From: Limonium bicolor
Lineage: Eukaryota; Streptophyta; Magnoliopsida; Caryophyllales; Plumbaginaceae
NCBI GenBank assembly: GCA_023374045.1
Contig: CM041776.1
Location: forward strand, 42,910,171-42,974,170
DNA: 64,000 bases
Direction of reading: 5' to 3'
Positions 14,530 to 61,104 of the stretch are shown here, piece by piece. Numbering within the stretch: position 1 is the stretch's first letter; every line of letters starts with the position of its first letter. The notes under the pieces were generated by a model, which made no database searches, was not told the DNA's origin, and saw only the letters and a list, made by a program, of their open reading frames with translations. Position numbers and translations under genes: made by a program.

Positions 14530-14745
14530 GGTACTCCGCTCTGATGACTAGAAAATAGGTTAAGACAGTGAGCTTAGGACTTGGGAAATTATGGGAAACG
14601 TTTGTGAGGTACGAGACAACTCGTCTTAAAGGATATTGTGTTTAGTAACACAAATAGCGTGATATATTAGCCTTAAAGGCAACTCAATATATATTGGTTG
14701 TGTACGGTAAATTACCGAGTATTTATGTGACATACCGTACTACAG

Positions 14746-18105: not shown

Positions 18106-18110
18106 ACCCT

Positions 18111-36432: not shown

Positions 36433-37029
36433 CAAAAAGCACGCAAGGGTACGGGGGAGGAAAGAAGAAAAAGCCATACCCCCAGTCCCAGAAAAGACAT
36501 CCACAGGGTGGCAAGGGCCAAGCCCAGACCACCACCGCTAAGGAGTCGTTGCAGCTCACCTATGCTTATGCGGCTAAGCCCCTACGCACTCAACCATTCA
36601 AGGGTAACTAGTTAATTCTGAATGTCGAGTTTAAGTGTGTGATGATATAGTATGAAGTGTGTACTGAATGTGTGATGTGCTAGCAGCTAGCACGGGCTCT
36701 GGATCCGATCGCCACTACTACTGCAAGTGGTGCAAGGGAGACCACCCCGGCAAGGACTACAAGGGAGATGATGTGCAGTGCCGCTACTGCAAGAAGATGG
36801 GGCATCGTGATTACGAGTGCTTCCAGAACCCGAATGGTAGGAACTACAGGCCCAAGGGGCAGTGGAAGGGTAAGGCCGCCGCGACCACCGATGGCCCGAA
36901 GACGGCAAACCAGACATCCTCAGATCAGAGGAACACTGATTCCCAGAAAGGGGAAGGGGTCGGGAGCTGGCAAGGCCACCCTGAATATGGTGGACCGGTC
37001 TGAGGCACCAGGATCCTCTTCTAGACCAG
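36433..37029 (+). pseudogene. gag: E4 gag C-terminal part with zinc knuckles
   Basis: Positions 36433-36603 match the end of E5 gag exon 2 (a GGGKKKK lysine run, then a TYAYAAKPLR block). A GT/AG intron, 36604-36686, leads to the zinc-knuckle exon (36687-37029). The first knuckle, CKWCKGDHPGKDY, has lost its last Cys (to Tyr). The second, CRYCKKMGHRDYEC, is intact. A one-base shift near 36950 separates it from the exon end. The exon ends CCAG before GT at 37030, exactly as in E5. Confidence 0.8.
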
Positions 37030-37175
37030 GTACCACCTAAACCGTTAAGTGAAATAAAGTGATTGCATACCGCATTTCATGCATGTGTGTTAGTGAGTCT
37101 AAGTGTACAAATACATGAGTAAAGAGTAGAAGTATAATGTGAAAGTCACCTAAATTAGGTAATTCTAAACCTTAG
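37030..37175 (+). other. E4 intron between gag and AlkB exon (predicted)
   Basis: It starts GTACC after CCAG and ends CTTAG before GAACCTTC, 146 bp. The phase (one base into a codon) is identical to the E5 intron at 59734-59877. No RNA evidence is available here. Confidence 0.6.
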
Positions 37176-40100: not shown

Positions 40101-42425
40101 ATATATATATATTCAGCAATTATGGAGAATTAAATTAAAACTATAGTTTATAAGACATTATGTAAAGAATATAAGATTTTGTGGTTAAATTGTAATTATA
40201 GAAAATATATATATATATAGGCCGAGAATTTGAGGGGGGCCAAATTGTAATTTTCGAAAGTTATAGTATTTAAAAGTTATATACCAAAATATTAATGGTG
40301 GTTTAGTAATATAATTAAACAAGGAATTAAAACTATGGCTTATATAGTTATAAGGAATTTAAAAGTTACCAATAATTATTATTTATTGTTAAAAGGGGAA
40401 TAATAAAAACTATAAGAATATTATGTCCATATATGGCATATAAATATAGCTAAGAAATTATAAAGTTGTTATGTCACCGAGACAACTAAAAATAAGCAAC
40501 ATATATAGTACATGAATAAATAAATACATATATGTACATTAAAGGATTTACAAATAAATCAAGAAGAAATAAACCTCACATGAAATAACAAATACAGAAT
40601 CATTAAATGATCCAATAAAATTATTATACAAGGGTAACATAAATTAACCCTTTCAGCTAATCCTAATATAGGACAAAACTTGACCAGACGTTGACCAGGA
40701 TATATTCAACTGCAATCTATGGTGAACGGTATGGGATTCTTGCAACCTGTTTGCTACCGGATTACACCGGCTTGTGTGCTATCTGTTGTTTGAAATAACG
40801 ACCAAGATAATTAATGTAGAATGTTGTATTACTCCTTTGCACTGTTGTGTTATTTTATGTGCGTGTTGGTGCTAACTGTAACATGTATGTCTCACGCATA
40901 CAACACTACATTACTAGTGGAATAAATACCTGTGCTTTATTATACCGAGAACTTGTACTCAAGTTTCTCACTAACTTCACTTTATAACGAACGTCGTTGT
41001 CCTAAACGTGACAACTGACAATACACATTGTGTTCTTGTTTAACATTCTTGGTTGACACCTAACAAATTCTATACTACGAGAACGAGGAGCCCAGTTGGA
41101 TCTGGCCATGCATGCTACGGGAGTTGTACCTATCTCAGGTCGTCTCCTATTCAATTTACGTCGCGACGGGAGTTTTGGGTGTGCACTATGTCCACTCACC
41201 GGGACCGTACCGGAACATTTTAAGTTGAGAGGAAGACTTTATTTCTCTCGAGGGTACGATACCCACCATTTGAAGTACAGGAGTTAACCTACGTTATCTT
41301 CTGAGGGAACTGGTACCCACCTCTTATAACAAGGTCACTATACCTTCATTATAATGACACACTCTTGTATACCATGTTAGTCCCATTGTGTGGACCCGAC
41401 TACTATTAAAGGATTACAGAACATCTAACTTGACCTTCTGAGTCTTGTTCAATGTGACATTGTTGTCCTTGTGTTGGATACTTGTTATTATCATGTTTTG
41501 TTTGTTTACAGCTTTATAATGAACTGCATGTATTCGACAAAGTAGTTGGTGTGGCCCAGTAGCCGGTGGGCTGCACGTTTTCCATACCGGCGATTATTTT
41601 GCTGAGCCATTTCATGGCTAAACAATTCCAGGTACGTGGAGTTGAGAAGATTACCACACCGAGTGTAGGTGGGGTAGACCAAGCTGTGGGAGTCTACTAC
41701 TAGTTTATTGTTTTACTTATTTATTGTACCTTTGAGTTTGATTCCTAGTATCTCGGGTTGTATTCGTATTCAGACGATGACTTTTGAGATTTGTATTTGG
41801 ACTTAGCCTTGTTAGTCACAAGGGTGGCTAACGGCATTGTAATACCGCCCGTTTGTTGTAATTTATTCCACTGCAATTTAAGTTTATTTGGGAGCGATCG
41901 TCGTTCAGGTTATTGAATTTCAGGTAGCGGTGTTACAGTAAGGATTGGAACCCCTACACCAAGACATATCAGGACACATAAGCTGAAGATGGAGCTACCA
42001 TACCGAATATACCTAAGGAGTTCCTTGCGGTGGTTAACCACACCGTGGGAATTTCTCAGCAAGTTGAATCAAAACCACTTCCGAGTATCAAGGCAGATTT
42101 GTGTATTGTCAACTTCTACCAAAGGGGTGGAAGATTGGGTTTACACCAAGATAAGAACGAAACACCCGAGTCTCTAAGTAAAGGAGTACCCGTGATGTCT
42201 TGGTGCATTGGTGATACCGCAATATTTATGTATGGCGAGCAGAAGCGTGCGGACCTCGCAAGGAAGTTAGTATTGAATTCTGGAGATGTGTTAATCATGG
42301 GTGGGCAGTCGAGGGTGTTGTATCATAGTATCCAGAAGATCAAACTAAATACGGCGCCTCCGACAATAATCAATGCCACACACATGAAACCTGGACGTTT
42401 GAACTTAACCTTTAGGCAATTCTGA
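37176..42425 (+). pseudogene. E4 AlkB (ALKBH1-like) exon, split by a solo LTR
   Basis: The two parts are 37176-37432 and 41943-42425, with GTAAG duplicated at the break. They form the same domain as the intact E5 copy: MMCMGK before the break; then NFY, the LHQDKNE iron motif (His-x-Asp), the distal His in LYHS and the final GRLNLTFRQF with both 2-oxoglutarate-contacting Arg. The solo LTR and one TAA (41979-41981) inactivate it. In the first 50 codons from MILL I count 10 codons with only silent differences from E5 and 6 with amino-acid changes, as expected if the domain was under constraint before the copies died. Confidence 0.9.
37433..41937 (+). mobile_element. Solo LTR (4505 bp) with target duplication GTAAG
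   Basis: It starts TGAAATACCCC and ends GGTGTTACA, flanked by GTAAG at 37428-37432 and 41938-41942. E5 has the uninterrupted site. It belongs to the same superfamily of long LTRs as E1 and E5 but is a different subfamily. CCGGAG/CTCGGGAG words cluster at about 37700-37920. There is an (AT)n run near 40095-40112. No genes are seen in these 4.5 kb. Confidence 0.93.
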
Positions 42426-42556: not shown

Positions 42557-42628
42557 GCAGTGTTGATTTCTTAAGTGTTCCACCCGTGTTGTTACCAATA
42601 TGCTTATCACGTTTATGAAATAAATTAG

Positions 42629-45035
42629 GCGCTGCACTCGGAATGGAAGGTACACTGAGTGTGTGTACAGAGGCAGAGGCCGACAAAAGCGGCACTATCC
42701 TCACCGGTACCTTCCCAGTGAATGGCGTGGATGCGTCGATACTGTTCGACTCTGGAGCCTCACATACATTTGTCTCACTCACATTCGCGAGGAGACTGGG
42801 GTTAGACGCGGAGGAGATACCTGACTTCCTAGTCACTCTCCCGTCTAAGGAGCGGATCAGATGCACCCGCTATTACCGAGATGCCACCGTTCGAATTAAG
42901 ACTGAAAAGTTCCCGATCGACATGATAGAGTTCGAGGGACTCGGATTTGATGTGATTGTGGGGATAAACTAGTTGGAGCGGCACAAGGGCCGAATCATAT
43001 GTGCCGAGCACCGTCTACTTCTTCGGAGTCCGTCTGGGGTTACCATTTCATACCGCCAGAGGCCCAGGGAGCCTTCGACACAAATCTCTCCGCCATGGCC
43101 ATGTATCATGAAATCAGAAGAAAGAATGATGTATACCTCTGCTATGTCCAGGACATTGAGAGAGACCCTGAGTTTAGCCCAGATGTGCTGGTTGTGTCAG
43201 AGTTTCCTGTATGTCTTTCCTAAGGAACTCACAGGCATGCCGCCTACAACGGGCAGTTGAGTTTGAGATTGATTTGGTGGCCGGGCACCGGACCGATAGC
43301 GAAGGCGCCCTACCGTATGGGCTCCAGCTGAGATGACAGAGCTCAAAGCAGCTGAGAGACCTACTCGACAAGGGATTTATATTCGCCCGAGCGTTTCACC
43401 ATGGGGAGCACCAGTCCTTTTTGTGAAGAAAAAGGATGGTAGTCTCCGCCTCTGCATCGATTACAGGGAGCTGAATGCTGTTACGGTAAAGAACCGTTAT
43501 CCATTGCCCGTATCGATGATTTGTTTGATCAGCTGAAAGGTGCATCTGTGTTCTCTAAGATCGATCTGCGATCGGGTTACCATCAGATTGTATCAGGGAT
43601 AGTGACATTGAGAAGACCGCATTCTGAACCAGATATGGCCACTATGAATTCACGGTCATGCCGTTTGGTTTATCTAATGCACCGGCGAAGTTTATGGACT
43701 ATGATCGTTTGTTTCGAGATCAGTTGGATTCAGTGGTTGTCTTCATTGATGATATTCTTATTTATTCTAAGTCCAAGTTGAGCATGAAGATCCTTGAGGG
43801 TGTATTGCAGACATTGAGAGAGAACCAGCTATATGCGAAGTTCTCGAAGTGTGAATTTGGCTAGACCAAGTCTCTTTTCTTGGTCATGTTATTTCTGAGG
43901 CCGGGATCGCTGTGGATCCGGCCAAGATTGATGCTGTGCGCACCTGGCCTAGACCGAAGACGGTTACCGACATCCGGAGCTTCCTCGGCCTAGCAGGGTA
44001 TTATAGGAGGTTTGTAAAGAATTTTTCCAGTGTTTCGAAACCGATGACATCCTTAATGAAGAAGGATGCACCATTTGAGTGGACAGTTGACTGTGAGAGT
44101 TCATTTCAGAGTCTCAAGGATGCTTTGACTTCTGCACCAGTTCTGACTATACCAGATGGTACTGATGGCTTTGAGGTGTACTGCGACGCGTCAGGCAAGG
44201 TATGGGCTGTGTTTTGATGCAGCACGGGAAGGTCGTGGCTTACGCCTCCCGACAGTTGAAACGACATGAAGAAAACTATCCTACACATGACCTAGAATTG
44301 GGTGCCATTGTCTTCGCCTTGAAGATATGGCGACACCATTTGTATGGAGTGAATGTGACGATCTATTCAGATCACAAGACTTTAAATACCTGTTCACTCA
44401 GAAGGAGTTGAACATGAGGCAAAGAAGATGGGTTGAATTCCTTACTGATTACGATATTAACCTTCAGTACAATGAAGGTAAAGCAAACGTTGTAGCTGAT
44501 GCATTGAGTTGCCGAGCACACTCTCTCCAATCGCTAAGCTCTCACTCTAGCTTGGTTGCTGAGGTGCGGAATGCTCAGATGTCCGATCAGTACATGCAAA
44601 GATCAGACAAAAGCTTATTGACGGCACATTCGAGCTAGAAGTATGATTTCCGACTTCATGATGATGACTTGATCAGGCTGAATGGCCGACTTTGTATTCC
44701 AAGAAGTAGCGCTGAGCTGAAGGAGCACATAACTGAGTGAATCACACTGTTCTACCACTTCGATTCACCCCGGAGCTTCAAAGATGTATAAGGATATGAA
44801 ACGATACTTTTGGTGGACGGGAATGAAAAAGGATGTGAATGACTATGTTGTGAGGTGTCTCACTTGCCAGAAGGTCAAGTTTGAGCACCGACGGCCTGGT
44901 GGTATGTGCAGCCAATGCCAGTGCCTGATGGAAGTTCCATGATATTTCCATGGACTTCGTTGTTGGGCTTCCGCCTACTCGGGGAGGCTTGAATATGATA
45001 TGGGTCATTGTTGACCGACTGACCAAGGTGGCCCG
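42629..45035 (+). pseudogene. pol: E4 protease-RT-RNase H-integrase, multiply broken
   Basis: It begins at the acceptor AATTAG/GC. The aspartic protease has LFDSGASHTF (about 42745) and is stopped by TAG at 42970-42972, where Trp is expected. RT starts near 43330: [21 protein letters not shown], a break near 43515, then [36 protein letters not shown] and the catalytic FIDD at 43742-43753. RNase H has [24 protein letters not shown] and YSDHKTL. Integrase has the zinc-finger Cys pair CLTCQKVK and the first catalytic Asp in MDFVVGLP. It ends in VDRLTKVA where E5 inserted. At least five frame changes and two further stops make it dead. Confidence 0.9.
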
Positions 45036-48000
45036 TGAAATACCCCAAACCTTAATAAGTTGTTTAAATATTAAATAATGATTTATTAAGACAAAAAAAT
45101 GTCTTAGAAACATTAGTAAACAATTTAAACCATAGAAAACACAAATAAATACCTTAAAGTCAATATGGGCTAAAATGTGCTCTAAGCTTGGGATAAGTTT
45201 GGTTAAGACCTAATAAGCTTACCAAGACTTAATTTATATGTTAATGAACATATTAAACCAATTACCAAAGAGAACCAAGCTTGAAAACAAATTAAAACAC
45301 AAAATGTGCTTTAAGAAGTCTTAAAGCACATTTTTGAAAAATTATCTTGTAAATGAGTTTTGAGTGGCTAAATGTCCATAATTACTCTTTAATTAATATG
45401 TGTACTCTTTAGTATCAAATTAGGAAGTCTAAATCAATGGGAAATCAAAAATTTCACATCTATGTGCCTTGTTTTTATGAATAGTAACTATAATAAGCTA
45501 GTTTGTAACATAGGTCTATGTAAGTAATTAAATGATTCAACAAAGACTAAAGTACCCCTTGTTACAATTGGGGGCCTGTTTTCTTATAAGGGATGAGTCA
45601 TCCCCTTGTTAATTTGATAAGATAGAAATTGATAAAGTAAATCACTATTTGCTTTACTTAAATATCTGAACTAACTAAGCCTTCTTCATTCTCTTATTTC
45701 TCTTGTTCCCACCGTCTTCTTCCTTCCTCCTTGCTCTCTTTTACGGTTTGCTATAGTACCACACACACCACCATCATTCTCCATCTTTGACCACTTATAT
45801 CTCCTAGCTCACTTTGCCAAATCAAATTCTAAGACCACCATTCTCTTACTCTTATCAAGCTCTTCAACTTCATCCTTTCAAAATCTCAAGAGCTCCATTT
45901 TGGTGCCAAGAAGAATCTCCATGGGAGGAGCTTGAGCTTATATTTCTACACCTAGTTGTTCTCCTTTGCTTCAAGGTAAGGAAACTCAAAGAAAAATGAT
46001 GTTTCCTCCATGTTTTTATGTTCACCGAAAATCACCTCTTCATGGTGTTTCCTTTTGCTTTGTTCTAGCTTCATTTGAATCATTCAAGGTCTTGGTGGAG
46101 TCCTCTCTTGCTACATATTCAAACTCTCTTTTGTATCCAAGGTAAAACAACTATCTAAATGTTCTAAGACAATATATGTATCTAGGGTTTACAATGAGAT
46201 GAAGCATAAAGCTTGTATACTCATTTCATGCTTGATATATTTAGAAGTTGACCAAACAATCAAAGCCTTGTCGGTTTTCAAAGGAACAAGAAAGAAGTTT
46301 GTGGGAAAAGAGGTAAATATGCTAACCTAAGTAGTTTAATGTCTTAGGAGAAAGTGAGCTTATTTGCTATTAAAAACTACTTAAAGAGCTAATGGTAAAT
46401 GACCTAGTGAAATGTTCTCAAGGAGACTAGTAAAAAGGACATATGTGTTGTTGTATGTATTTGTAGGTCAAAGGCAAATATATTGTGGGAAATTCAGTGT
46501 TTAAGGTTTATGCAATTTAAGGGCCTAAGAGCCATGCATTTTAAGGGCCTAAGGGCCAAGCAATTTAAATTATGCACTATATTGTGATGTAGTGTAAATT
46601 GGGTGAAGTTGTGTGTGTGAAAGTGTTCTTGATGGATTTAGGTGTTCTTGGGTGTTTATTGGTGAAAACAATGTGTTTTAGCTTAGTAATGTTCTAGGAG
46701 AATCCATGTCAAAATTTAGGTAATGTCCAAGAAGTTCTAGGTGTTTAAATAAGGTTTGGTGAACTATAAAGTGATAGAAATGATTAGGTATTTTACTAGA
46801 GAAGAAACAATGTTATAAGGTGTTCAAGAAACAAAAAGGACTAAGACATCAACTAGGAGTTGGTTGTAGGAAAATATGCTTGGGAGATGATGTTGAAGTG
46901 GTGAGAAAACATTTTGGGATAATAGTTATCTTAGGTATGAAACACCACTTAGAAACCTAAGAAATTACAAGTGTTGGAATTTTGGAAAGGATGAGTAAGT
47001 ACTTAAGGAAATAGAAAATGACTTTTATGAATGTTCAAGGAGGCTTTGAGTGTGCCAAATGGTGTTGGTAAACATTGAAGGCTTTAGGAGAAGTTTGGTG
47101 AAGATTTGACAATGTTTGGGCATGTTCTGGTGGCGTCCGACCCAGGGGTCCGACCCAAGTTTGGGTCGAACGACCTCTGTTAGACGCCAGTAAATGGTTC
47201 TGGAATGGTCCGACCCAGAGGATTGAGTCGGACATTGGGTCGGACGGGTGAATTAAAAGACGTAAAAGTTTCTGGAATGGTCCGACCCAGTTGTGTCGGT
47301 CATGGGTCGGACATGGGTGTTTTCAAGGACGTAAGTTTCTGGAATGGTCCGACCCAGAGGACATGGGGTCGGACAAGCAAAGTTTTTCAAACCCGAAAAT
47401 TACTGGAAGGGTCCAACCCAGTTTTGGGTCGGACGGTGGGTCGGACAAACCAAAACTTAAAAAAAAAACACAAAAGAATGTGACTTAAAGTATTAACCCT
47501 AAGGGGTATAATGAAGGTAACCAAGATAAGTTGGGCATTTAAACATGTCATATAATCATGTAAATACTTAGTAAACTTGAAGTTAATGAATTAATTAACC
47601 GGCGTTATTAATTATGTATAGGAGTGGCCTACGGTGGAAACAAATCGAAGCAAGGACCAAGGTATGGTTTTTCTTGCATTCTGTTGCCTACCGGTTTACA
47701 CCGGCTTGTGTTTGTTTATTTTTCTGTATGTTTACGACGTTATAAGACTCAATCATGTATAAGTTTACAGTGTTCATATTATTGTGATGTTATGATGTGA
47801 CTCATTTCCCTTGTGTGTGTCAACATGACTACCACTGTTTGTGAACTGTTTGTTAAGTTCCACTGTTGAACTTCTAACAAGTGCTAACTGGGAAGTGAGG
47901 AATCCGGTTGTCCGGTCATGCATGTAAGTTTAAGAGTAGATATCTGTATCAGATTCAACTCTTATGTTGTTAAGATTGTTCTCCTTCATTTGGCGTACGA

Positions 48001-48822
48001 TCTCCCATTAGCTCCCTCCAGAGCTTACCTATTCTGACTTATGATCGGTTTAGTGGGGAACATGTGTTTTTGTGTGGTGTGTTCTGTCACTATATCTGGA
48101 CCATCTGTGACTTAAGTTACTCGTTCGAATAACAGAACGGTAATGAGTGTGTGTAACAAGCTTAATATGAGAGTGAACCATTCTCTAGGCTTCTTATGTT
48201 GATTAACCTTCTTGGTTGTTATTGTGGAAAGTGTATCCACTATGTATGTGTTGTTGTGCTATGCAATATTATTGCTATGCCATATGTATATGTTATGTGT
48301 TAAAATAAATGCCATGTCATCATGACAATTAGTTGCGCGTATCCCGGTAGCCGATGGGCTGCCCGTTAACCATACCAGCAAAAGGTTGCTGACCCCCTCT
48401 GGGGGCTCTGTTTATTTGCAGGATGAGGATCAAAGAAGCGGAGTGGCTTTAGATCCTAGGTGGTAGAAATACCTTTGATTATTTTGGATGTTGAGCCCGG
48501 GATGCGCCTGTGCTCCCGTGGCGTTATATTTTTGTACCATTAGTTTGACAGTGACGGTTGTTGACAGTGATAGTGGCAGTTTATGGCTGACAGTTTACAG
48601 TGATGGATTGTATTTATACACTCGGTATTGTATATGATGTATTATGGTTTTAGTTCTACGCTCGGGAGTCTGATCATCAGACCGGTACACTTGTATTTAT
48701 TCTGCCTTGTTAACCACGTGGGTGGTTAACGGCGTTGTAGCACTGAACCGTTTAGTTATTGTTTAGTTGTTTATTTCCGCTGCGATTTCAGTTAGTGATA
48801 AGTGCGAAGTAGGGGTGTTACA
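45036..48822 (+). repeat. E5 5' LTR (3787 bp)
   Basis: It starts TGAAATACCCCAAACC and ends GGGGTGTTACA. The first ~0.85 kb is the reverse complement of 61605-62459. TCCGACCCAG/GGGTCGGAC words are repeated at about 47137-47455, which creates frames (47205-47488) that are not genes. No coding content is recognised. Confidence 0.88.
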
Positions 48823-48827
48823 AAAAG

Positions 48828-48839
48828 TGGTATCAGAGC
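48828..48839 (+). other. E5 primer-binding site (tRNA-iMet type)
   Basis: TGGTATCAGAGC begins six bases after the LTR end, followed by an imperfect TCAGAGCGA...TCACTCTGA foldback like that of E1. Confidence 0.85.
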
Positions 48840-50218
48840 GAAGTATCACTCTGATGACTAGAATACCGACCTTAGGAATATACCGAGTTAGGAAACCTAA
48901 CCGTAGTTACCTAAGTGAACAGACTTGGAAAGGTTAACCACTAACTAAGTGTGGAAATACCTTGTTGTCGGAAAGATGCTACAACCGTTGGACCGATAAG
49001 TGTGCAAGCATAATGCTAATGAAATGTTCATGTGAATTTAGATGTCAGGTAGACCACGAGGTAGAGGCCGCGGGCGCGGTACTGGAGATACGGGTGACCA
49101 GGGCGAGAATACTACGGCTCAGGTTATGGCTGAGGCAGTAGTAGCCGCCGTAGCCCAGATGGTCCCGCAGTTGGTTGCTGCGATACAGCAGGGGCAACAG
49201 CCCGAAGTTCAACCACCACCACCACCACCGCCACGAGAGACCAACTGGGTCAAGGCGTTGGCAGATTTGAGACCCCCGTCGTTCAATGGGGAGACCGGCC
49301 CTCGTAAGCTGGAGGCGTACATCTCTGAGCTGGAGACCGCCTACGAGACCCTGGCTGTGCCTGCTAAGGCTAAGGTCCGTCTTGCCGCTTACTACTTGAA
49401 GGGTTCGGCACAGAGTTGGTGGAAGCTTGTGAGAGAGGACAGGATGGCTGATCCTGAGTTTGGTTGGAGGGAGTATACGGCTCTGCTGCGCCAAGTATTA
49501 TCCTGTGCATGTACAAGAGGCCAAGCGCCTAGAGCTGGATAGTCTGAGGCAGGGGGATAAGATGTCGGTTGACGACTACTACACCGCTTTCACCGGCCTT
49601 ATCCACCTGTTACCGGACCTGGGATACTCGAACCGGGTGTTGGTGAACCGGTTCTACGACGGTCTCAGCCACCGTCTTCGCTACGGGATGGGGCAAGCTG
49701 AGTATACCACCTTGCAGGTAATTAAATACTGTGATGTGAATCAGTTTATACTGTAAGTGAATGATAATGTGAGTTGTGAGTTTGTTTTGTGGGGCATGAC
49801 TGACATCCTAGATTCAGGAGTGCTATCATGCCGCTGCTAAGGTGGAGATTACCGTCCGTCTGAGGGACGAAGAGAATGCACACAAGCGCAAGGCCACGAA
49901 CGAGGGCCAGAGTCAGCAAGGGTATGGGGGAGGAAAGAAAAAGAAGCATTACCCTCAGACCCAGAAGAGTCAGCACCAGGGTGACAAGGGCCAAGCCCAG
50001 ACCACCACAGCTGAGGAGCCACTGAAGCTCACATACGCGTATGCGGCGAAGCCCCTACGCTCTCTCCCGCCCAAGGGTAACTACCCAATAATGTGTATCA
50101 AGTTGAAGTGTATGTTGTAAGTTATGAAGTGAGTATTAATTGTGTATTGTGATAGCAGCTAGCGCGGGTTCTGGACCGGAGCGCCACTACTACTGTAAGT
50201 GGTGTAACGGAGACCACC

Positions 50219-51979
50219 TGTTATACCCAAAATTTCAACCCCCCCCCGGAGGAGAGTCTCTACTAATAGGCTAGTAGCAAGGGTTCCCAGTTCGATCGGC
50301 ACATTTCAGAGTACTAGGGACAGCTTAGTCATCTCCAGGGGCATTTTCGTAATTTTTCAAGGCTCCTAAGCCCCCTATAGGCTTTCTCTCTCCTCCAAAT
50401 AAGGGTCAAATCAACTTGAAATGCTTTGATATTTTAACCCATGATAGAGGATGACATTTTAAGCATAATGGCGTTGGAATTTTGATTTTTCGAATTTCCA
50501 ATAATTTTCTAGCAATTTCTGATTGAATCTGACGAGAAATTGAATTTAAAAATATTCCAATACCCAAAAAATTCGATCTCACTTTAGAAAAATCAGAATT
50601 ATCATCCTTTACCCATGTGTGAAATTTCATAATCAAATTCCTTTTGGAAGCCCTTGAGCTAAAACGTCGGTAAATCTCGGTTTTTACCGGATTTTTCTAT
50701 CTTTAAGGAAGTCTATATAAGGAACCTTATCCCATGATCAAAAGAAACCTCAAGAACCCTAAGCAACCAGAAAACCTAGCCGTCTCATTCTCCTCACGTT
50801 TTTACACATCCAAGCACCAAAATCACATCAAAAATCTCTCGAAATCACCACCTAAACACACTTTTCAACTCCTAACACATCAACAATCATCAAACATCAA
50901 CCAAACCACCTCCAAAACGTGAAGAACATCATCAACAATCAACAACCAGAAGCCCGGGTCGAACTCAATCCGGAACCGGCATCATCGGAGCCTCCGAAGA
51001 ATCCCAACGTGAAGAATCATCTTGAATTCGAAGGTAAAACAGGTTACAATCCAACTTTTCTGATTCCCCACGACCTTATTAACTCTCTGTTAAATTTTGG
51101 GTTCAAACTAACCTTCGTACGCTTCTGTATTGCTGTTTATTCAAGCTTCTGTCCAATAACTTGTTTACCAAGTTTCGTGCATAATTCGAATTCAAATTGA
51201 GAACTTTCGATCACTAACGCATTGTACATCTTTCAGGCTACACACCCATAAAATTTGAGTCGAAAACACCTTCGGGAACAGCCTTAACGCCGCCGTCCGA
51301 GGGCGGTCCGCACCCACGGACGTCATGTCCGGGGTCCCGGACTCCTTGTCCGTAAGCCCGGACGCCCACGGACGGCGGCGAGATTTTTTAAATTTTTAAA
51401 TTTAGGTTTTTTCTAATAATGTCCGGGCCCACGGACGGCCTGTCCGTGGCCCCGGACTTTACAACTTTCTGTTTTCTGTTTAATTCGACTTTTATTTTCA
51501 TATAGGTTAACTAGGGTCCGTGGTCTCGGACATTAGGTCCGTGGCCACGGACGGAAACAAAATTTGACCTAATTCTGCCTCCGAAACCCTAGTTTAGGTA
51601 GCTTTCAATTTCACTTTGTTTTTCTGTCAAAAAATGATAAAAACACAAAAAAAAAGCGCGCACTTAGGTTAAAAACGACTTTGTAGTAAGCCGTAAATAA
51701 ACTGAGTAGAGGAAAAACGACCTAGGAAGGGTAATGAAAGTAATTGAACCCTAATTAAGTCGAATATCAAGCCCCCGAACCCGAACTCTCCTTTCCTAAT
51801 TTGATCTAGGTTAAAATTAGGTGGCGGCTCATAATAGGTTCCAGTGAGCTAGCTTAGGTTTTAATAATTATTGTTATATGACATAGTTATTAATCTTAGG
51901 TTATAAGTGGACCTAAAACCCGGTTAGATCCTCATCAGCTTTAATCAACATAGGATAGGGTTTAAAATCGAGGCTCACA
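50219..51979 (+). repeat. E3 5' LTR
   Basis: 1761 bp, TGTTATACCC to GAGGCTCACA. It holds a TATA-like box, TCTATATAAGG (50711-50721), and the TCCGTGG cluster (51290-51555) with the perfect 16-bp palindrome GTCCGTGGCCACGGAC at 51537-51552. Its sequence differs appreciably from the E2 LTR, so E2 and E3 are separate subfamilies. Confidence 0.93.
50711..50721 (+). promoter_or_regulatory. TATA box of the E3 5' LTR
   Basis: TCTATATAAGG is in the same relative LTR region as the E2 TATA box and recurs in the 3' LTR near 58186. Start site unknown. Confidence 0.5.
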
Positions 51980-51982
51980 GAC

Positions 51983-52000
51983 TGGCGACTCTGCTGGGGA
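51983..52000 (+). other. E3 primer-binding site
   Basis: TGGCGACTCTGCTGGGGA, three bases after the LTR; identical to the E2 site. Confidence 0.87.
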
Positions 52001-53244
52001 CAACTTCTTAATTTTAACTTGTTTAATTTTAAGAAAGAGGGCTTAACTCGAAAATTGTTTATTTATGGCTTTATTACTTTGTTTATTTACTTCTGTGCGC
52101 ACTTTAATTTCGGCACCTTTGCATCATGTGAGAGCGAGGGTCCACGCAAACCAATTTCACCCCGGGACCCGTTTGAGGGTCCCCTGTCAGGGACTCACAC
52201 CTTTTAGGTGATGTGAATAAGCGGGGGAAAATAGGAGGATGTCGTCTAACCACACCCCCTTAATACCTGGGCTTTAGCCCCAAGCGTTTTCCTGGCAGTG
52301 TCCTTACCTAGCCCATTGTTTGGTCAGTCAAAGACCCGACCGTAGACGCACACCTTCAGGTGATGTGAAAAAAGTGGGGAAGCCCAAAGAGAATAGCGTG
52401 CAAGCCCTATTCCTTTGAGGTGACCTGGGCCCATGCCCCAAGCACCTCTCCGGATCGATCCATACCCGTTTGGATTTAAACGTCTAGTGAGGACATGTTG
52501 AATTTGTGTGGGCCTTGTTTGCTTGTATGATCGGCCCATTACTCAGCCTACAGATTGATAGGAACTTCTCCTACATTAACCTAGCCCAGCCCGAATTGGC
52601 GGTTCTATTTGTTTGCGACCCAGAGGTCCTGTTTGGTTTAATATGTGAGTCATTCGGGCTTCGGCCCAAAAAGCTTAGACTTAGGTGATTTCTCTTCTGG
52701 CCCAATTCGAATTATCCATTTAGTTCTAGGCCCATGAAAAACAAATCCACCTCAAGCATTTCATGAAAATCCATCAGGCCTTTCCATTTCAAGGTTTATT
52801 CTAGTCCAGGAAGACTTTCCACTTGGGCTTTGGCCCAAAGTCCTAGATATAGGTATCATCTTCTAGGCCCAATTAGAATTACTTGGCCCAAGTTCCAATT
52901 CACATCAAGATCACGGTTTAGAAATCATTTTGGCTCATGCACTTTACTTCTAGCCCAAATACATTCTGGCCCAAGCGCCCAATTCTCAAAACATTCCGGC
53001 TCAAGAGCCACTTTCTTCAAACATTTCAGCCTAGGCACCAGTTCACGGCTCATGAATCATTCCGGCTCATGTGCCTCTCTTCCAACTCATTTCGGGCCTC
53101 AATGCCAACCCACAATCTTCAAAACATTCCAGCTCACATGCTTTTCTTGCAGCCCAAACAAGTTTTAGCCTAAGACTTCTTTGCGGCCCAGAATTTTAGC
53201 TCAGGTCGCTTTTGTTTTCCAACAGATAAGCCCAAATCTCAAGT
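52001..53244 (+). other. E3 leader between PBS and gag
   Basis: Non-coding; homologous to the E2 leader. GGCCCA blocks and degenerate repeats with 'ttctcaaaacattcc' lie at about 52930-53170. Frames at 52019-52207 and 52830-53173 come from these repeats and are not called. Confidence 0.6.
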
Positions 53245-54290
53245 ATGGCAGGGGGAGGAAATCCAATCAACATGGGTGTCCAGTTAGCCGAAGAATTCAA
53301 TGGGATGCTGAAAAAGATTGAGCGAATGGAGAGGGCCAACAAGCCAGCCGGTTTTGACTACTTTTCCACTGGATTATATCCCAAGGTTGACCTCCCTCCA
53401 AGGTTGAAATTGCCAACACTTCCTCTATACAAAGGTTCCTCCGACCCACAACTTCATTTGGCAATGTTCGATAGGGAAATGTCCATCCTTTCACTAAACG
53501 ACATGCAGAAGGCCAAGGTGTTTGCTCACTATCTTGACGAGACCCCTCAGCATTGGTACATAACTCAAAGGATAAATACCAAGACCTACGAGGAGGTATG
53601 TGAAGCTTTTCTGCATCATTTTGAGTACGCTAGAAGTTTTGGAGTCACCAGGGCTGATCTTGCAAGCACACAACAAACAGAAGGTGAATCAATGTCTAAT
53701 TTTGTCAAGCGTTGGAGGATGAAGGCAGCCGCAATGCTCACACAGATGGACGAACAAGAGCAAATCCGAAAAACAAAAAAAAAAATGTAAGAAGTCAATA
53801 CAGTGACGATCTGAAATTCACATACTTTCCTAGCTTCGACATGCTGATGGGACAAGTTGATGTCCTAGAAGAAATGATTCACCAAGGGGAGTTAAAACTT
53901 GGGAACTCAAAAAAAACCGGGAACGGCTCGAGGACAGCAGCCTGTATCCAAAGTGGCACCCGAAAGAGAACTAGGCAGCATGAGGTAAACACCGTTCGAC
54001 AGATAAAAGGACCAGGACAAATCGTTAGGGCAATGGAATCATCCCGAAAGAGCTCCCGTCAGAAAGAGTTCACAAACATCGGTCAACCATTGAGCCAGGC
54101 TTTTGAAAGACTCCAGGAACGAAACATGCTGCAACCTCTCACCCCTCGACAAAGAGACCCTCAAAAAGGAAGGAATCTGAACCAGTATTGTCAGTATCAC
54201 CAGCTTCCCGGTCATGACACCGACAACTGCAAAATTCTGAAGCAGCACATCCAAGATCTTATCAACCAAGGTTTTCAACTCCCCGAGTAG
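53245..54290 (+). pseudogene. gag: E3 gag, one frame break at an A run
   Basis: The ATG at 53245 (MAGGGNPINMGVQLAEEF) is the family start. The core has KLPTLPLYKGSSDPQLHLAM, MFDREMSIL, YLDETPQHWY and FVKRWRMKAAAM. At the A-rich stretch near 53770-53786 the frame changes, replacing the segment that reads MIVDNMQ in E2. The second frame continues with LKFTYFPSFDMLMGQVDVLE and the zinc-binding motif CQYHQLPGHDTDNC, ending LINQGFQLPE at 54290. The zinc motif and core resemble Ogre/Tat gag. The A run may be a sequencing fault or real; without it the protein would be nearly full length. Confidence 0.87.
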
Positions 54291-56430
54291 GAATCCCATG
54301 TAAAGCACCATCAGAGACTGCTGTCTTCAAGTGTTTTCTTCGATTTCCTCTCTTTACTAGTCTTTTTTTTTATGTTTTTCCAATGTTTGTAGTAGTTAGT
54401 TTCCTTTACCATTTTCGGTAGTTTCTCTAAGTCTGTAATTTCCAACATTATCACATGATTCATAAATAAAATCATAGTTCCATTTTCACAATTCCTGTAC
54501 AAACCATTTTCAATTCATCAAACAAAAACAAAAAAAATGCTTTTCAGGGAAAAGGATCACGGAATAATCATTTCCCGACTATAGAACTGAACGATTTATT
54601 TCTTGTTGAACATGCCACGCTAAGCATCACAACTCACCCCAAAACATCCAAAACAACCCACGAAGCGGTTCCAAATCCACATCTTTCCAAATTGTTGTCA
54701 TAAACCCCAAATCAATACTGGGGGCAATCTAAGTTGAAGTTCGTCATCTTTCATTTAAATGTGCGAATGAGTTTCCAAGTGAAAATCTCGCGAGAGTGTC
54801 TTGAGCGGAAAAACCATGAGTGAACGAGTGTGTCATTTTTACACGACTCCGGTGAGACCACATTCAAAGGTGAGGTAAACGGCATAACTCCGACTGAGGG
54901 AGATAATTTGTAAATTTACTCTTAGACCTGCGAAAAGTAACAAAGAAAGGATACACAACTATTAGGGATGACGAAGCACCTAGGTACAGCACCACACATC
55001 CAAAAGCTTGTGAACCCTGACATCACACCCTAGGCACCCCCGCTGAGCTTTTGATATATGACCTCTTTTACAACACTACAAACTCCACAGAATAAGCCAG
55101 CCAATGGTGAATACCCGACCCGGTGACCAAAGGATGCAAGGAGCCCGACTTCCGAACAGCAACTTCACAAGTCCAAAGAAGCAGAACTGCTACTAGCATG
55201 ACGGAGTGATCCGCAAATGGCCCCAAAGTGGCACAGGATTCAAATGCGCTAACATCAAAAACAGCTCTCAAAGTTCAAAACCGGGAAACACAAGAACCCC
55301 GGAGGAAAAGAGATTCAAAGAAAGGCAAACCTGGAAAGCCTCGAAGTAATCCAAAATCAGTAGAAAGAGAGAAGGCGCAAGGAACAACCCAAAAGTTCTA
55401 AGTTCCAAGCTCATAAGCGAAGTTATCACGAAGTAGCCAAACGACTTCAAGGCAAAGAAGACGAGTCCGAGAGAGGGTGAAAGTTGCAGCTTTGGTCACC
55501 CTTATAGCTCCGCATACCTGAAATATCCCTCCATGGTCCCGTTGTCTTTCATCACACCCCATGGCCATGTTATAAGCTTTAAAGACTTCCGACTTGATAG
55601 TTGTGTATCCAATCACGTGAAAGTAACAGATCGAATGCGTAAATTCATCAAATATCAAATTCAATGGTCTAGAAGTTGTGACCGTAAGTGAGAAATGAGT
55701 GTAAACACCAAACACGTCGAGTGTAGGTTAGGAAGCACCAAATCAGAACATAAGCCTTGACCCTGTGAGGACGAGACTCGTTCGCACGTTTGATCAAAGA
55801 AATACTGGGGGCAATCGATCGGAACGATCGATTGCCATGAACTCTAGCTCAGATTGTCTTAAGGGAAAAATACCGGGGGCAATTGTTGGTTCCAACAATT
55901 GCTATGACAACACCAATTGGAACCCAAAGCCCTTACCTGCACATCAAACACCACAGGCCCACATAAGCCCTTACCTTCACATCATACACCATACCCCACT
56001 GGCGGCATGTTCATCTCGTAGGAGATAAATTACAAGTCCGAAGTCTATAGTTAGGAAATGATAATTCACTTTCCTTTTCACTAAACAGAATTTTCTTCAA
56101 ACACTGCCACATTTGGCACCTCTTTCAACAATTTCTTGTCTTGAACAACTTTCCCTCAAACACTTCGGTTTCATAAACCTCATCATGGCCACATTTGGCA
56201 CACTTTCTAGCAATGTCTTGCTTTGGACAATTTTTGACCCTTAATGTTGCCATGTTTGGCACATTTTCCAACGATTTCTTGTTTTGGACAAGTTTCCTAC
56301 ATACACTTTGATTATATTTTGACATGCATATCATCTTTGCCACGTTTGGCACTTTCATAATCAGCTTTCATCATGATCATTTGCATAAAGTTTACCTTGC
56401 ATCCGTCTGTACGAAACTCCTCATCATAGA
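54291..56430 (+). other. E3 3' non-coding region with hairpins and PPT-like motifs
   Basis: No coding motif. GGGGGCAAT occurs near 54719, 55807 and 55875. Hairpins: GGCAATCGATCG/CGATCGATTGCC with loop GAA (55810-55836), and GCAATTGTTGG/CCAACAATTGC with loop TT (55879-55902). Several copies of 'ccacatttggcac'-like blocks lie at 56100-56350. Homologous to E2 21057-23094. Confidence 0.6.
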
Positions 56431-56433
56431 CCA

Positions 56434-56655
56434 GAGATACAGATTCTCAGCTGAAGGTACAGATTCTTCAGAGATGCAGATTCTCAGCCGAAGGTGCAGA
56501 TTCTCCAGAGATACAGATTCTCAGCTGAAGGTACAGATTCTTCAGAGATGCAGATTCTCAGCCGAAGGTGCAGATTCTTCAGGGATACAGATTCTCAGCC
56601 GAAGGTACAAATTCTTCAGAGATGCAGATTCTCAGCCAAAGATTCAGATTCACCA
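56434..56655 (+). repeat. E3 tandem repeats, 37-bp unit
   Basis: About six imperfect units with 'cagattctcagc' followed by 'gaaggtacagattcttcag'. Same unit as E2 20599-21029, in fewer copies. Confidence 0.85.
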
Positions 56656-56785
56656 GAATAGATGAACTCAACCTCAGGCTCGTCGTGAACCCAATTTCCT
56701 ACCATTCCACTTAGGCACCCATAGGTCCTACTTTACATTCGTCAATTTAGGCACACATCACATCAACCTCATTACATCTCTTCTC

Positions 56786-57165
56786 AATTCCAGGTTCCCG
56801 ACACCTTATAATGCTCGGCGCATTCCAGGTTCCCGACACCTTATAATGCTCGGCGCATTCCAGGTTCCCGACACCTTATAATGCTCGGCGCATTCCAGGT
56901 TGGTTCCCGACACCTTATAATGCTCGGCGCATTCCAGGTTCCCGACACCTTATAATGCTCGGCGCATTCCAGGTTCCCGACACCTTATAATGCTCGGCGT
57001 ATTCCAGGTTCCCGACACCTTATAATGCTCGGCGTACTCCGGGTTCCCGACACCTTATAATGCTCGGCGTGTCCCGTTAATCTCAGGTTCCCGACACCTT
57101 ATAATGCTCGGCGTATTTCATTCGTTTCAGGTTCCCGACACCTTTAGAATGCTCGGCGTACTTCA
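56786..57165 (+). repeat. E3 tandem repeats, 35-bp unit, about 10 copies
   Basis: 'ggttcccgacacc' followed by 'ttataatgctcggcg' and a variable 'cattcca' linker, spaced mostly 35 bp. I see no comparable array in E2, so it expanded in this lineage only. Confidence 0.87.
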
Positions 57166-57176
57166 TTCCATTTAAA

Positions 57177-57580
57177 GGTAGTCAACGCCTTAGAATAGTT
57201 TGACATCATATCATCCTTTTAGGTTGTCAACGCTTAGAATCGCTTGACATTATCTCATTTCCACATTTTAGGTAGTCAACGCCTTAGAATAGCTTGACAT
57301 CATTTCATCATCACTTTAGGTAGTCAGCGCCTTAGAATAGCTCGACAGCATATCATCACTTTAGGTAGTCAGCGCCTTAGAATAGCTCGACAACATATCA
57401 TCCTTATAGGTAGTCAACGCCTTAGAATAGCTTGACATCATATCATCCTTATAGGTAGTCGACGCCTTAGAATAGTCTGACATTACTTCATCATTACCTT
57501 TAGGTGGTCGACACCTTAGAACCACTCGACACCCTTCCACTTTACTCATAGGTAGTCAGCGCCTTAGAATAGCTCGACAC
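57177..57580 (+). repeat. E3 tandem repeats, about 44-bp unit, about 9 copies
   Basis: 'ggtagtcaacgcc' followed by 'ttagaatagcttgac' and a 'atcatatcatc' linker. Four units are present at the homologous place in E2. Confidence 0.85.
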
Positions 57581-57680
57581 AACTTGTCGGATTTCAGTTG
57601 CACGAGGGCCTTTTAAGATCCAAAATTTTGGGGTATCACTCAAGCATCAACTACTAGCCTTTTCATTTCCATTACAAAGT

Positions 57681-57700
57681 CTAGTTGACGGGGGGCAATC
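57681..57700 (+). other. E3 polypurine tract
   Basis: CTAGTTGACGGGGGGCAATC directly before the 3' LTR (57701). Identical to the E2 tract. Confidence 0.87.
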
Positions 57701-59446
57701 TGTTATACCCAAAATTTCAACCCCCCGGAGGAGAGTCTCTACTAATAGGCTAGTAGCAAGGGTTCCCAGTTCGATCGGCACATTTCAGAGTACTAGGGAC
57801 AGCTTAGTCATCTCCAGGGGCATTTTCGTAATTTTTCAAGGCTCCTAAGCCCCCTAAGGCTTTCTCTCTCCTCCAAATAAGGGTCAAATCAACTTGAAAT
57901 GCTTTGATATTTTAACCCATGATAGAGGATGACATTTTAAGCATAATGGCGTTGGAATTTTGATTTTTCGAATTTCCAATAATTTTCTAGCAATTTCTGA
58001 TTGAATCTGACGAAAATTGAATTTAAAAATATTCCAATACCCAAAAAATTCGATCTCACTTTAGAAAAATCAGAATTCATCCTTTACCATGTGTGAAATT
58101 TCATATCAAATTCCTTTTGGAAGCCCTTGAGCTAAACGTCGGTAAATCTCGGTTTTTACCGGATTTTTCTATCTTTAAGGAAGTCTATATAAGGAACCTA
58201 TCCCATGATCAAAAGAGAACCTCAAGAACCCTAAGCAACCAGAAAACCTAGCCGTCTCATTCTCCTCACGTTTTTACACATCCAAGCACCAAATCACATC
58301 AAAAATCTCTCGAAATCACCACCTAAACACCACTTTTCAACTCCTAACACTCACAATCATCAAACATCAACCAAACCACCTCCAAAACGTGAAGAACATC
58401 ATCAACAATCAACAACCAGAAGCTCGGGTCGAACTCAATCCGGAACCGGCATCATCGGAGCCTCCGAAGAATCCCAACGTGAAGAATCATCTTGAATTCG
58501 AAGGTAAAACAGGTTACAATCCAACTTTTCTGATTCCCCACGACCTTATAACTCTCTGTTAAATTTTGGGTTCAAACTAACCTTCGTACGCTTCTGTATT
58601 GCTGTTTATTCAAGCTTCTGTCCAATAACTTGTTACCAAGTTTCGTGCATAATTCGAATTCAAATTGAGAACTTTCGATCACTAACGCATTGTACATCTT
58701 TCAGGCTACACACCCATAAAATTTGAGTCGAAAACACCTTCGGGAACAGCCTTAACGCGCCGCCGTCCGAGGGCGGTCCGCACCCACGGACGTCATGTCC
58801 GGGTCCCGGACTCCTTGTCCGTAAGCCCGGACGCCCACGGACGGCGGCGAGATTTTTAAATTTTTAAATTTAGGTTTTTCTAATAATGTCCGGGCCCACG
58901 GACGGCCTGTCCGTGGCCCCGGACTTTACAACTTTCTGTTTTCTGTTTAATTCGACTTTTATTTTCATATAGTTAACTAGGGTCCGTGGTCTCGGACATT
59001 AGGTCCGTGGCCACGGACGGAAACAAAATTTGACCTAATTCTGCCTCCGAAACCCTAGTTTAGGTAGCTTTCAATTCACTTTGTTTTTCTGTCAAAAAAT
59101 GATAAAACACAAAAAAACAGAAGCGCGCACTTAGGTTAAAAACGACTTTGTAGTAAGCCGTAAATAAACTGAGTAGAGGAAAAACGACCTAGGAAGGGTA
59201 ATGAAAGTAATTGAACCCTAATTAAGTCGAATATCAAGCCCCCGAACCCGAACTCTCCTTTCCCTAATTTGATCTAGGTTAAAATTAGGTGGCGGCTCAT
59301 CATAGGTTTCCAGTGAGCTAGCTTAGGTTTAATAATATTGTTATATGACATAGTTATTAATCTTAGGTTATAAGTGGACCTAAAACCCGGTTAGATCCTC
59401 ATCAGCTTTAATCAACATAGGATAGGGTTTAAAATCGAGGCTCACA
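57701..59446 (+). repeat. E3 3' LTR
   Basis: 1746 bp, TGTTATACCC to GAGGCTCACA. Compared with the 5' LTR it lacks many single bases (for example at the C run after 57719 and in 'caaatcacatc' near 58290) but shows few substitutions. Confidence 0.93.
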
Positions 59447-59733
59447 CCACCCCGGCAAAGACTGCAAGGGTAACGACGTGCAGTGTCGCTACTGTGAGAA
59501 GTGGGGTCACCGTGACTATGAGTGCTACCGGAACCCCAACAGTAGAAACAACAAGCCCAAGGGGCAGTGGAAGGGTAAGGCCACCGCGACTAATGATGGC
59601 CCGAAGATGACTAATCAGCCACCCACTGATCAGAGGAACACTGATTCCCAGAAGGGGAAAGGGCCGGGAGCTGGCAAGGCCGCCCTGAATGTGGTGGACC
59701 GGTCTGAGGCACCAGGACCCTCTTGTAGACCAG

Positions 59734-59877
59734 GTACCGCCTAAATTGTTGAATGAAATAAGTGATTGCTTACCGCATTTCATGCATGTGTGTTAGTGGG
59801 TCCAAGTGTATAACCATGTGAGTAAAGAGTTAAAGTAAAATGTGAAAGTCACCTAAATTAGGTAATTTGAAACTTAG
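59734..59877 (+). other. E5 intron between gag and AlkB exon (predicted)
   Basis: 144 bp, from GTACCGCC after CCAG to AACTTAG before GAACCTTC. If not spliced, gag ends at the TAA three codons into the intron. The same donor is also in phase with the acceptor at 60797, which skips the AlkB exon. No transcript evidence here. Confidence 0.6.
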
Positions 59878-60617
59878 GAACCTTCAATATTTGCTATCCA
59901 ATCCCACCCACACCAAACCCTAAAGAAACCACCATCAACATTACCGAATTCCCACTGGAACAATGTCAGGTTATCCAGCCAGGTATGATACTTTTAAATG
60001 GATACCCGACACCGGAAGCACAAATCCACATCATCAGGCGATGCAACGAGCTTGGAGCAGCACCAGGAGGTTTCTACACACCCGAATATCTGAGCGGATC
60101 GAGAATGAAACTGAAGATGATGTGCATGGGTAAGGACTGGAACCCTTACACCAAGTCATATCAAGATGTGCGAGCTAAAGACGGAGCAACTGTACCATGT
60201 ATACCTGAGAAGTTCCTTGCGGTCGTTAACCACGCCGTGGGAATTGCTCAGCAAGTTGAATCAGAACCGATTCAGAACGTCAAAGCAGATTTGTGTATTG
60301 TGAACTTCTACCAGAAAGGTGGACGATTAGGGTTACACCAGGACAAGGACGAGTCACCCGAGTCTCTAAGTAAGGGAGTACCCGTGGTGTCTTGGTCCAT
60401 TGGTGATACCGCAGTGTTTATATACGGCGAGCAGAAGCGTGGTGATCTCGCAAAGAAGCTAGTATTGAAGTCGGGAGATGTGTTAGTCATGGGTGGACAA
60501 TCAAGGATGTTGTACCACGGTATCAAGAAGATCAAACTGAATACCGCACCATCGACAGTGATCAATGCCACACGCATGAAACCCGGACGTTTGAATTTGA
60601 CCTTCAGGCAGTTTTAA
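59878..60617 (+). CDS. ALKBH1-like Fe(II)/2-oxoglutarate dioxygenase domain of a retrotransposon
   Basis: AlkB-family enzymes oxidatively remove methyl groups from DNA or RNA bases. The exon adds about 36 residues before the Met at 59985; from that Met the frame is 210 residues. Counting from it: N107 and Y109 in IVNFY, H118 and D120 in LHQDKDE (iron), distal H178 in LYHG, R202 and R208 in GRLNLTFR (2-oxoglutarate). KGVPVVSWSIGDTAVFIYG is typical of the plant ALKBH1 branch. All catalytic positions are kept and there is no stop or shift before the TAA at 60615. It has no internal intron, consistent with capture from mRNA. It sits between zinc-knuckle gag and protease, in phase with the gag donor. 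Best read as the C-terminus of a Gag-AlkB fusion, or a separate protein from Met 59985. Substrate unknown. Confidence 0.92.
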
Positions 60618-60796
60618 GCCTTGTGTAATCATGTAATGTATTAAGCCAGTTGTATGTTAAGGATGCTATATTTAGCCATGTCTACAATGTAACCCAACTT
60701 ATGGTGTAAAGAGTGTGTTAATGAATAAAGAGATGTTGTTTTGGAGTATATCAATCGTGTTGTCACCCAATACTTATAAGTTTGCCAATGAATTAG
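60618..60796 (+). terminator. Spacer after AlkB with AATAAA (60724-60729)
   Basis: Non-coding between the AlkB stop and the protease acceptor (AATTAG ending at 60796). E4 has a similar spacer (42426-42628) with AATAAA in an equivalent place. Use of the signal would give a Gag-AlkB mRNA; skipping would allow pol. It may be the 3' UTR of the captured gene, which is inference. Confidence 0.45.
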
Positions 60797-61104
60797 GCTG
60801 TGCACTCGGAACGGGAGGTATACTGAGTGTCTGCAATAAGGCAGAAGCCGGCAAGAGCGGCACAATCCTCACCGGTACCTTGCCAGTGAATGGCGTGGAC
60901 GCATCGATCTTGTTCGACTCTGGAGCCTCTCATACATTTATTTTGCTGTCTTTTGCGAAGAGGCTGGGGTTAGACGGTGAAGAGATGCCTGACTTCCTAG
61001 TCACTCTCCCGTCGAAAGAGCGGATCAAGTGTACCCGCTACTACCGAGATGCTATTGTACAAATCAGAGATGAGGAGTTTCCGATCGACTTGATAGAGTT
61101 CGAC
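60797..61104 (+). CDS. pol: E5 aspartic protease, start of pol (cut by gap)
   Basis: The exon opens at AATTAG/GCTGTGCACTC in the phase of the gag donor at 59733. It has SGTILTGTLPVNGVDASILF, then the active site DSGASHTF, RLGLDGEEMPDFLVTLPSKE and RYYRDA. The frame is open to the gap at 61105. Orthologous to the E4 protease at 42629. A frame from Met 60715 also covers it, but its first residues have no counterpart in E4. Confidence 0.88.

Follow-up and report, generated by a model that had tools for sequence, protein, structure and literature searches.

We analysed a 64,000-nucleotide (nt) stretch of the Limonium bicolor genome (contig CM041776.1, forward-strand positions 42,910,171 to 42,974,170), hereafter the window, which carries an ALKBH1-type dioxygenase frame of the AlkB family within a Ty3/gypsy long terminal repeat (LTR) retrotransposon. 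The frame, 210 codons plus TAA at 59985-60617 on the + strand, belongs to an element that we call copy B. The domain order bears out its placement, in a preliminary description, between the gag zinc knuckles and the aspartic protease: upstream, the zinc-knuckle stretch is matched by zf-CCHC_3 (E 0.019) and by a PHD model (E 0.00094), both under their cut-offs, and downstream lies an RVP_2 protease (E 7.6e-16). The features of copy B are as follows, with L-numbers denoting other genomic copies and slashes marking splice points.

45037..48823, + strand: 5' LTR, 3787 nt, TGAAATACCCC...GGTGTTACA; 3' LTRs with the same start occur in other copies
48828..48839, + strand: primer binding site (PBS) TGGTATCAGAGC, which we take to be of the initiator-Met-tRNA type; the exact 12-mer recurs in 15 of 20 other copies
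49042..49717, + strand: gag exon 1, coding for the capsid part; in L017 matched by Retrotrans_gag (E 2.3e-18)
49718..49817, + strand: gag intron 1, GT...AG, phase 0; precisely missing in L021 and L026
49818..50076, + strand: gag exon 2
50077..50158, + strand: predicted gag intron 2, GT...AG, phase 1
50159..59733, + strand: predicted gag exon 3 with the zinc knuckles, holding a nested element and ending at the donor CCAG/GTACC
50219..59446, + strand: younger nested LTR element, foreign to the AlkB element; LTRs 98% identical
59734..59877, + strand: predicted intron 3, from gag to the AlkB exon
59734-60796, + strand: alternative intron skipping AlkB
59878..60617, + strand: predicted AlkB exon with leader, ALKBH1-type dioxygenase and TAA
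107 nt from 59878, + strand: AlkB exon leader, TFNICYPIPPTP...QPG, conserved coding
60724..60729, + strand: AATAAA, predicted proximal poly(A) signal in the AlkB-protease spacer
60797..61104, + strand: protease (pol) exon from the predicted acceptor AATTAG/GC

Over the AlkB frame, the Pfam model 2OG-FeII_Oxy_2 is matched at 194 of 194 profile positions (E 6e-46), and the top solved structure by sequence is rice ALKBH1 (5xeg, E 9.4e-66). Counted from the ATG, the catalytic residues are N107-F-Y, H118, D120, H178, R202 and R208, exactly as first numbered. H118, D120, H178 and R202 are unchanged in all 21 copies compared, and R208 is present in 20 of them, with K in L016. The domain has the AlkB fold with the HxD...H and Rx5R residues of an ALKBH1-type 2-oxoglutarate and Fe(II)-dependent (2OG-Fe(II)) dioxygenase, and the ALKBH1 class was assigned to it by sequence and fold. 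The preliminary description was right that the frame is intact, and its coding start needs correction: the probable first position of the coding exon is 59878, the left edge which that description had itself drawn. The ATG is retained in 21/21 copies, reading MILL or MVLL.

Copy B is readable only in part. Its gag exon 1 contains a frame change near 49500, the nested element is flanked by the target duplication CCACC (50214-50218 and 59447-59451), and a 500-N gap at 61105-61604 cuts the copy within its protease, so that its reverse transcriptase (RT) lies outside the readable sequence, as does its right-hand target duplication. Sequence for RT, RNase H and the first part of integrase was read from the second window copy and from other genomic copies. 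To the right of the gap, at 61605-62458, we noticed a minus-strand LTR fragment of the same family. The second and older window copy, copy A, is laid out as follows.

36443..37432, + strand: gag end, zinc knuckle, intron 3, leader and N-terminal AlkB of copy A
37433..41937, + strand: solo-LTR-like insertion in the AlkB frame, with target site duplication GTAAG
41938..42425, + strand: C-terminal AlkB part, with a single in-frame stop just before 41982
42568..45045, + strand: protease, RT, RNase H and integrase start, matching residues 16-845 of the L017 pol

The two copies are 86% identical across 36741-37432. The pol of copy A contains frame changes and ends at about 45036, where the LTR of copy B begins. 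Because copy B's own LTR and PBS lie inside the integrase region of copy A, copy B arrived by its own insertion and brought the AlkB segment along with it; segmental duplication of one AlkB locus is thereby ruled out for the window copies.

A search of the source genome (2.92 Gb, 2686 contigs) with the AlkB frame gave 49,950 candidates at first look, and 150 of these were scored. The frame occurs in at least 150 copies genome-wide, copy B among them; the 150 scored copies show 91-100% identity over residues 1-210 (in one copy 4-210), and 142 of them have no internal stop while 8 have one. Twenty of the remaining 149 were fetched. They were picked by AlkB similarity, and the sample gives no proportion of family members without AlkB. 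Gag capsid exons lie at least in part upstream of AlkB in 19 of the 20, L015 retaining only a partial zinc knuckle. Downstream, the protease is present in 20/20, with an insertion of ~5.3 kb within it in L014, and the RT-RNase H region in 19/20 (not L015). An RT-core match was obtained in all 20, that of L015 possibly stemming from another element. Restriction of the domain to this locus would, according to the preliminary description, have told against its reading. The presence of the frame at 150 or more places, with element parts around the 20 fetched loci, rules out a single-locus AlkB retrocopy and makes the ALKBH1-type domain a family trait of this Ty3/gypsy element.

Three copies (L017, L022 and L028) retain one uninterrupted pol frame of 1149-1160 amino acids (aa). 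In the 1160-aa pol of L017 the domains follow the protease-RT-RNase H-integrase order of Ty3/gypsy elements (RVP_2 43-167, RVT_1 299-459, RNase H 522-646, H2C2 735-789, rve 812-905), all exceeding their cut-offs except rve, which falls under it. The best solved match of this pol is the Ty3 Gag-Pol 7q5b (E 5.6e-157), and a Chromo model, a chromodomain at the end of integrase being the mark of the chromovirus lineage, scores 19.2 bits (E 0.0011), under its cut-off of 25.1. The LTRs likewise show the TG...CA ends, PBS and 5-bp duplication of a Ty3/gypsy element: both ends were read in L019 (target duplication TATAC, span 13,902 bp) and L016 (AAACT, 14,141 bp). The copies are young: Kimura two-parameter (K2P) distances between LTRs are 0.0053-0.0231 over 445-596 sites in 10 copies, and these young LTR pairs rule out segmental duplication elsewhere in the genome as well. 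If LTRs change at 1.3e-8 substitutions per site per year, the 10 pairs date to 0.2-0.9 million years. Some AlkB matches occur as same-strand pairs 10.0-10.4 kb apart, e.g. C7:16140482 / C7:16150777 and C5:31026634 / C5:31036985; this spacing, about one internal region plus one LTR, suggests tandem elements with a common LTR.

The gag introns and the layout of the terminal exons had been overlooked in the preliminary description, which otherwise gave the gag, AlkB and protease anatomy correctly. Because intron 1 is precisely lost in L021 and L026 (TTGCAG/GAGTG), the element qualifies, from DNA alone, as intron-bearing; the simplest reading would be reverse transcription of a spliced RNA, in one event or two. 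Among copies keeping intron 1, the GT donor is present in 17/17, and 16 have the AG acceptor at a constant position (L011 being the exception). For the splice-site alignment we used 19 copies, L015 being excluded, and introns 2 and 3 are present in all 19. The donor of intron 2 is kept in 19/19 and its acceptor in 18/19 (not L018), and the zinc-knuckle donor CCAG/GTACC (59733/59734), the AlkB acceptor (59877/59878) and the protease acceptor (60796/60797) are each kept in 19/19. The reading phases also agree: the zinc-knuckle donor is in phase 1 in 17 of 20 copies (L015, L020 and L023 read otherwise), the AlkB acceptor requires 2 nt in 19 of 20 (L013 has lost 4 nt), and the protease acceptor requires 2 nt in 14 of the 15 copies in which it could be placed (not L013). 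Since a single donor in gag fits the phase of either acceptor, gag could be joined in frame either to AlkB, with its own stop, or to the protease, and AlkB is predicted to be an alternative terminal exon. An AATAAA lies ~100-115 nt past the last AlkB codon in 20/20 copies; copies A and B also have it, with a slightly larger distance in A.

Elsewhere in the window, at 14518-18110, a gag-bearing relative has zinc knuckles and, as read by eye, predicted gag introns at matching places. No AlkB match was found in it, decay being too great to separate loss from original absence.

Selection was measured as omega, the ratio of nonsynonymous to synonymous change, by the pooled Nei-Gojobori method. The AlkB frame is under purifying selection like RT, with omega 0.098 for AlkB and 0.107 for RT (18 copies, without L014 and L015), compared with 0.224 for the protease (18 copies) and 0.195 for gag (15 copies); in all 20 copies plus copy B the AlkB value is 0.102. 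Among copies, the proportions of synonymous (pS) and nonsynonymous (pN) differences in AlkB are 0.15 and 0.015, a roughly tenfold excess of synonymous change. The leader, which was no part of the search query, gives omega 0.13 over the 105 nt upstream of the ATG (17 copies; L013, L026 and L027 excluded for indels); keeping L026 and L027 and dropping L013, L014 and L015 raises it to 0.41, the cause being shifted rows. As a crude control, reading the AlkB-protease spacer as an ungapped pseudo-frame yields 1.08-1.16. Between copies A and B, the C-terminal AlkB part shows nonsynonymous and synonymous divergences (dN, dS) of 0.10 and 0.54, and the leader pN 0.10 and pS 0.31. Divergence from L017, counted over 13-15 copies, is 0.037 for AlkB, 0.031 for the protease and 0.040-0.043 for the gag exons, and 0.154, 0.075 and 0.059 for introns 1, 2 and 3 and 0.070 for the spacer.

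AlkB relatives at 59-70% identity (P0001-P0004) were found on other contigs. In a quick tree of 130 rows, rooted uncertainly on P0196, which sits on a long branch, copy B, the C-terminal part of copy A, P0001 and P0004 form one group (SH-aLRT, the approximate likelihood-ratio test, 94). This group, together with P0002, P0003 and P0146 (Riccia), falls outside a 122-row group (support 80) that comprises all remaining rows except the root. In this tree the element domain groups apart from rice ALKBH1 (5xoi/5xeg) and plant ALKBH1D-type proteins. A search for AlkB-pol fusions in annotated proteins returned 78 matches among longer proteins, for none of which the precomputed Pfam annotation lists a retroelement domain, and scans of IMG/VR, which holds virus contigs and is uninformative on plants, confirmed no relative. 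P0199 (Artemisia annua) was set aside, its high score arising only from two AlkB stretches in one protein; it is an annotated dioxygenase with a partly tandem-duplicated AlkB domain, and may be a gene-model artefact. P0196, of 491 aa, combines an AlkB domain with an RNA-methylase-type domain, PF00588 (SpoU family), possibly an eraser and a writer in one chain.

Comparison with known systems places the element beside several partial parallels. The preliminary description knew of no LTR retrotransposon family with an AlkB domain, a statement contradicted by Ty3/gypsy elements of the orchid Phalaenopsis, whose ALKBH5-like domain has N6-methyladenosine (m6A) demethylase activity in vitro (PMC9289625); AlkB in a Ty3/gypsy element is thus already known. 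Like the Limonium family, the Gypsy_Pa_2799-type orchid elements are plant Ty3/gypsy elements with an extra AlkB-family domain (PF13532), kept catalytic residues and many copies, and the authors propose that AlkB acts on transposable-element or cellular RNA (PMC9289625). The orchid elements are of the Tat/Ogre lineage, measure 25.5 kb with gag-pol in a single open reading frame (ORF), and have their ALKBH5-class domain as the last part of a second, 565-aa frame, ORF2 (PMC9289625). In contrast, the Limonium element spans ~14 kb, has an intron-bearing gag and holds an ALKBH1-class domain between gag and protease; in domain class, domain position and length it falls outside the orchid family. The orchid study screened 121 angiosperms and reports such a domain in the consensuses of no other genome (PMC9289625), and a review cites it (PMC12786077). 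Judged by titles and abstract openings in the open-access literature surveyed, the orchid study alone deals with an AlkB domain in an LTR element, and no ALKBH1-class case was found. Without parallel in that literature are the ALKBH1 class, the gag-protease position, a gag with introns and a terminal exon that is predicted to be chosen by splicing.

Introns are described as an exception in plant LTR elements, and Ogre is likewise a plant Ty3/gypsy element with spliceosomal introns (PMC12786077), from which the Limonium element differs by two introns within gag and a predicted alternative terminal AlkB exon. The Ty1/Copia element EVD makes a spliced, prematurely terminated shGAG RNA that yields an excess of Gag (PMC8892269). 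There, as would be the case here, a gag donor and a proximal poly(A) signal give a short Gag messenger RNA (mRNA) beside Gag-Pol (PMC8892269). The Limonium element is Ty3 rather than Copia, with the AlkB-skipping intron in addition to three predicted ones; its short mRNA is predicted from conserved DNA sites, and the resulting protein would terminate in an enzyme domain. Plant RNA viruses (Alpha-/Betaflexiviridae, Closteroviridae) also carry an AlkB-family domain in a mobile genome, and fold matches of the element AlkB in BFVD include grapevine leafroll-associated virus 3; identity is only 8-22% among the 50 BFVD matches listed, in contrast to the plant ALKBH1 class of the element domain.

Taken together, we put at about 0.6 the probability that the ALKBH1-type exon of this Ty3/gypsy element is made as Gag-AlkB by alternative splicing and would likely demethylate the RNA or cDNA of the element itself. 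The zinc-knuckle donor would choose between the near acceptor, leading to the AlkB exon, its stop and the AATAAA and hence to Gag-AlkB, and the far acceptor of the protease, leading to Gag-Pol, with the unspliced RNA as the genomic form. By way of its Gag part the demethylase would reach or enter the particle, and AlkB could there clear 1-methyladenosine (m1A), 3-methylcytidine (m3C) and m6A in RNA, or N6-methyladenine (6mA) in single-stranded cDNA; these methyl groups might otherwise stall reverse transcription or flag the RNA for host control. Human ALKBH1 acts on m1A58 of tRNA, and m1A and m3C stall RT. A precedent for the RNA strategy is EVD shGAG (PMC8892269), and one for the chemistry is the orchid AlkB (PMC9289625). 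A fuller version, which we hold tentatively and at somewhat less than even odds, is that one splice choice ends the coat protein in either polymerase or demethylase, that Gag-AlkB would package an ALKBH1-class eraser beside the genome and its tRNA primer, where by clearing m1A, m3C or m6A, or 6mA in cDNA, it would help the element to be reverse transcribed and to evade methyl marks of the host, and that the domain was acquired independently of the orchid ALKBH5-like case.

Several observations weigh against Gag-AlkB. An exact gag-AlkB or gag-protease junction was found in none of the fetched copies, and copies A and B are each broken elsewhere. The AATAAA lends modest support to a poly(A) signal, since shuffling one spacer 5000 times produces the motif 710 times, and equally invariant six-base windows make up 6.9% of those in the AlkB-protease spacer. 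The zinc-knuckle exon, with a divergence of 0.072, is no better kept than introns 2 and 3. Sampling by AlkB similarity biases the AlkB omega downward, although leader and RT are not directly so biased. Rice ALKBH1 is reported to act on 6mA in single-stranded or unpaired DNA (PMC10469495) and NbALKBH1L on m6A RNA (PMC12736721), so the substrate cannot be read from sequence. Finally, the AlkB frame has its own ATG, and separate initiation is possible. This last point leads to the foremost rival, that a free AlkB is made from its own ATG or from a separate subgenomic RNA and works in trans, with RNA of the cell or of the element as its target, instead of as a Gag fusion in the particle. The ATG kept in all 21 copies compared and the separate frame of the orchid ORF2 (PMC9289625) would suggest this; yet conservation at the protein level covers the 105 nt before the ATG, right back to the gag-phase acceptor, and we regard a free enzyme as unlikely.

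A less probable alternative still is that AlkB has a non-enzymatic or structural role, for instance in nucleic-acid binding or in setting the Gag:Pol ratio as an alternative exon, with catalysis incidental. A terminal exon at this position would alter Gag:Pol output, and EVD uses its shGAG for just such a Gag excess (PMC8892269); however, the near-invariance of the iron ligands and both arginines, and an AlkB omega as low as that of RT, speak against such a role. The idea of a functionless passenger, a host ALKBH1 retrocopy caught in one element and hitch-hiking on a recent burst, draws on the youth of the copies, which would be intact by default, and on their selection by AlkB similarity. It is largely refuted, and we consider it very improbable, given the tenfold excess of synonymous change among copies, the same bias between copies A and B, which were found irrespective of protein similarity, and the relatives at 59-70% identity on other contigs.

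Other repeats were noticed in the window. A direct pair at 18111-20131 and 25628-27645, 99.4% identical, looks like the two LTRs of a further element similar in kind to the nested one (50219-59446), and repeats at 4513-7162 / 28423-31068 and 11790-13740 / 31064-33013, at 96%, represent a possible local duplication. Tandem arrays lie at 62754-63690 (191-bp units) and 56432-57579 (units of 37, 35 and 45 bp).

That another AlkB class occurs in a Ty3/gypsy element of different build suggests that demethylase uptake is a strategy which plant retrotransposons can repeat rather than a peculiarity of orchids, and hence that methylated retroelement RNA or cDNA poses a real obstacle whose removal is worth its cost. 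The Limonium family, with 150 or more mostly open frames in the genome and selection of RT strength in the sampled copies, offers a natural system in which the methyl mark that limits retrotransposition could be sought. If true, the choice between Gag-AlkB and Gag-Pol by splicing would be a new way to place an enzyme in the particle.
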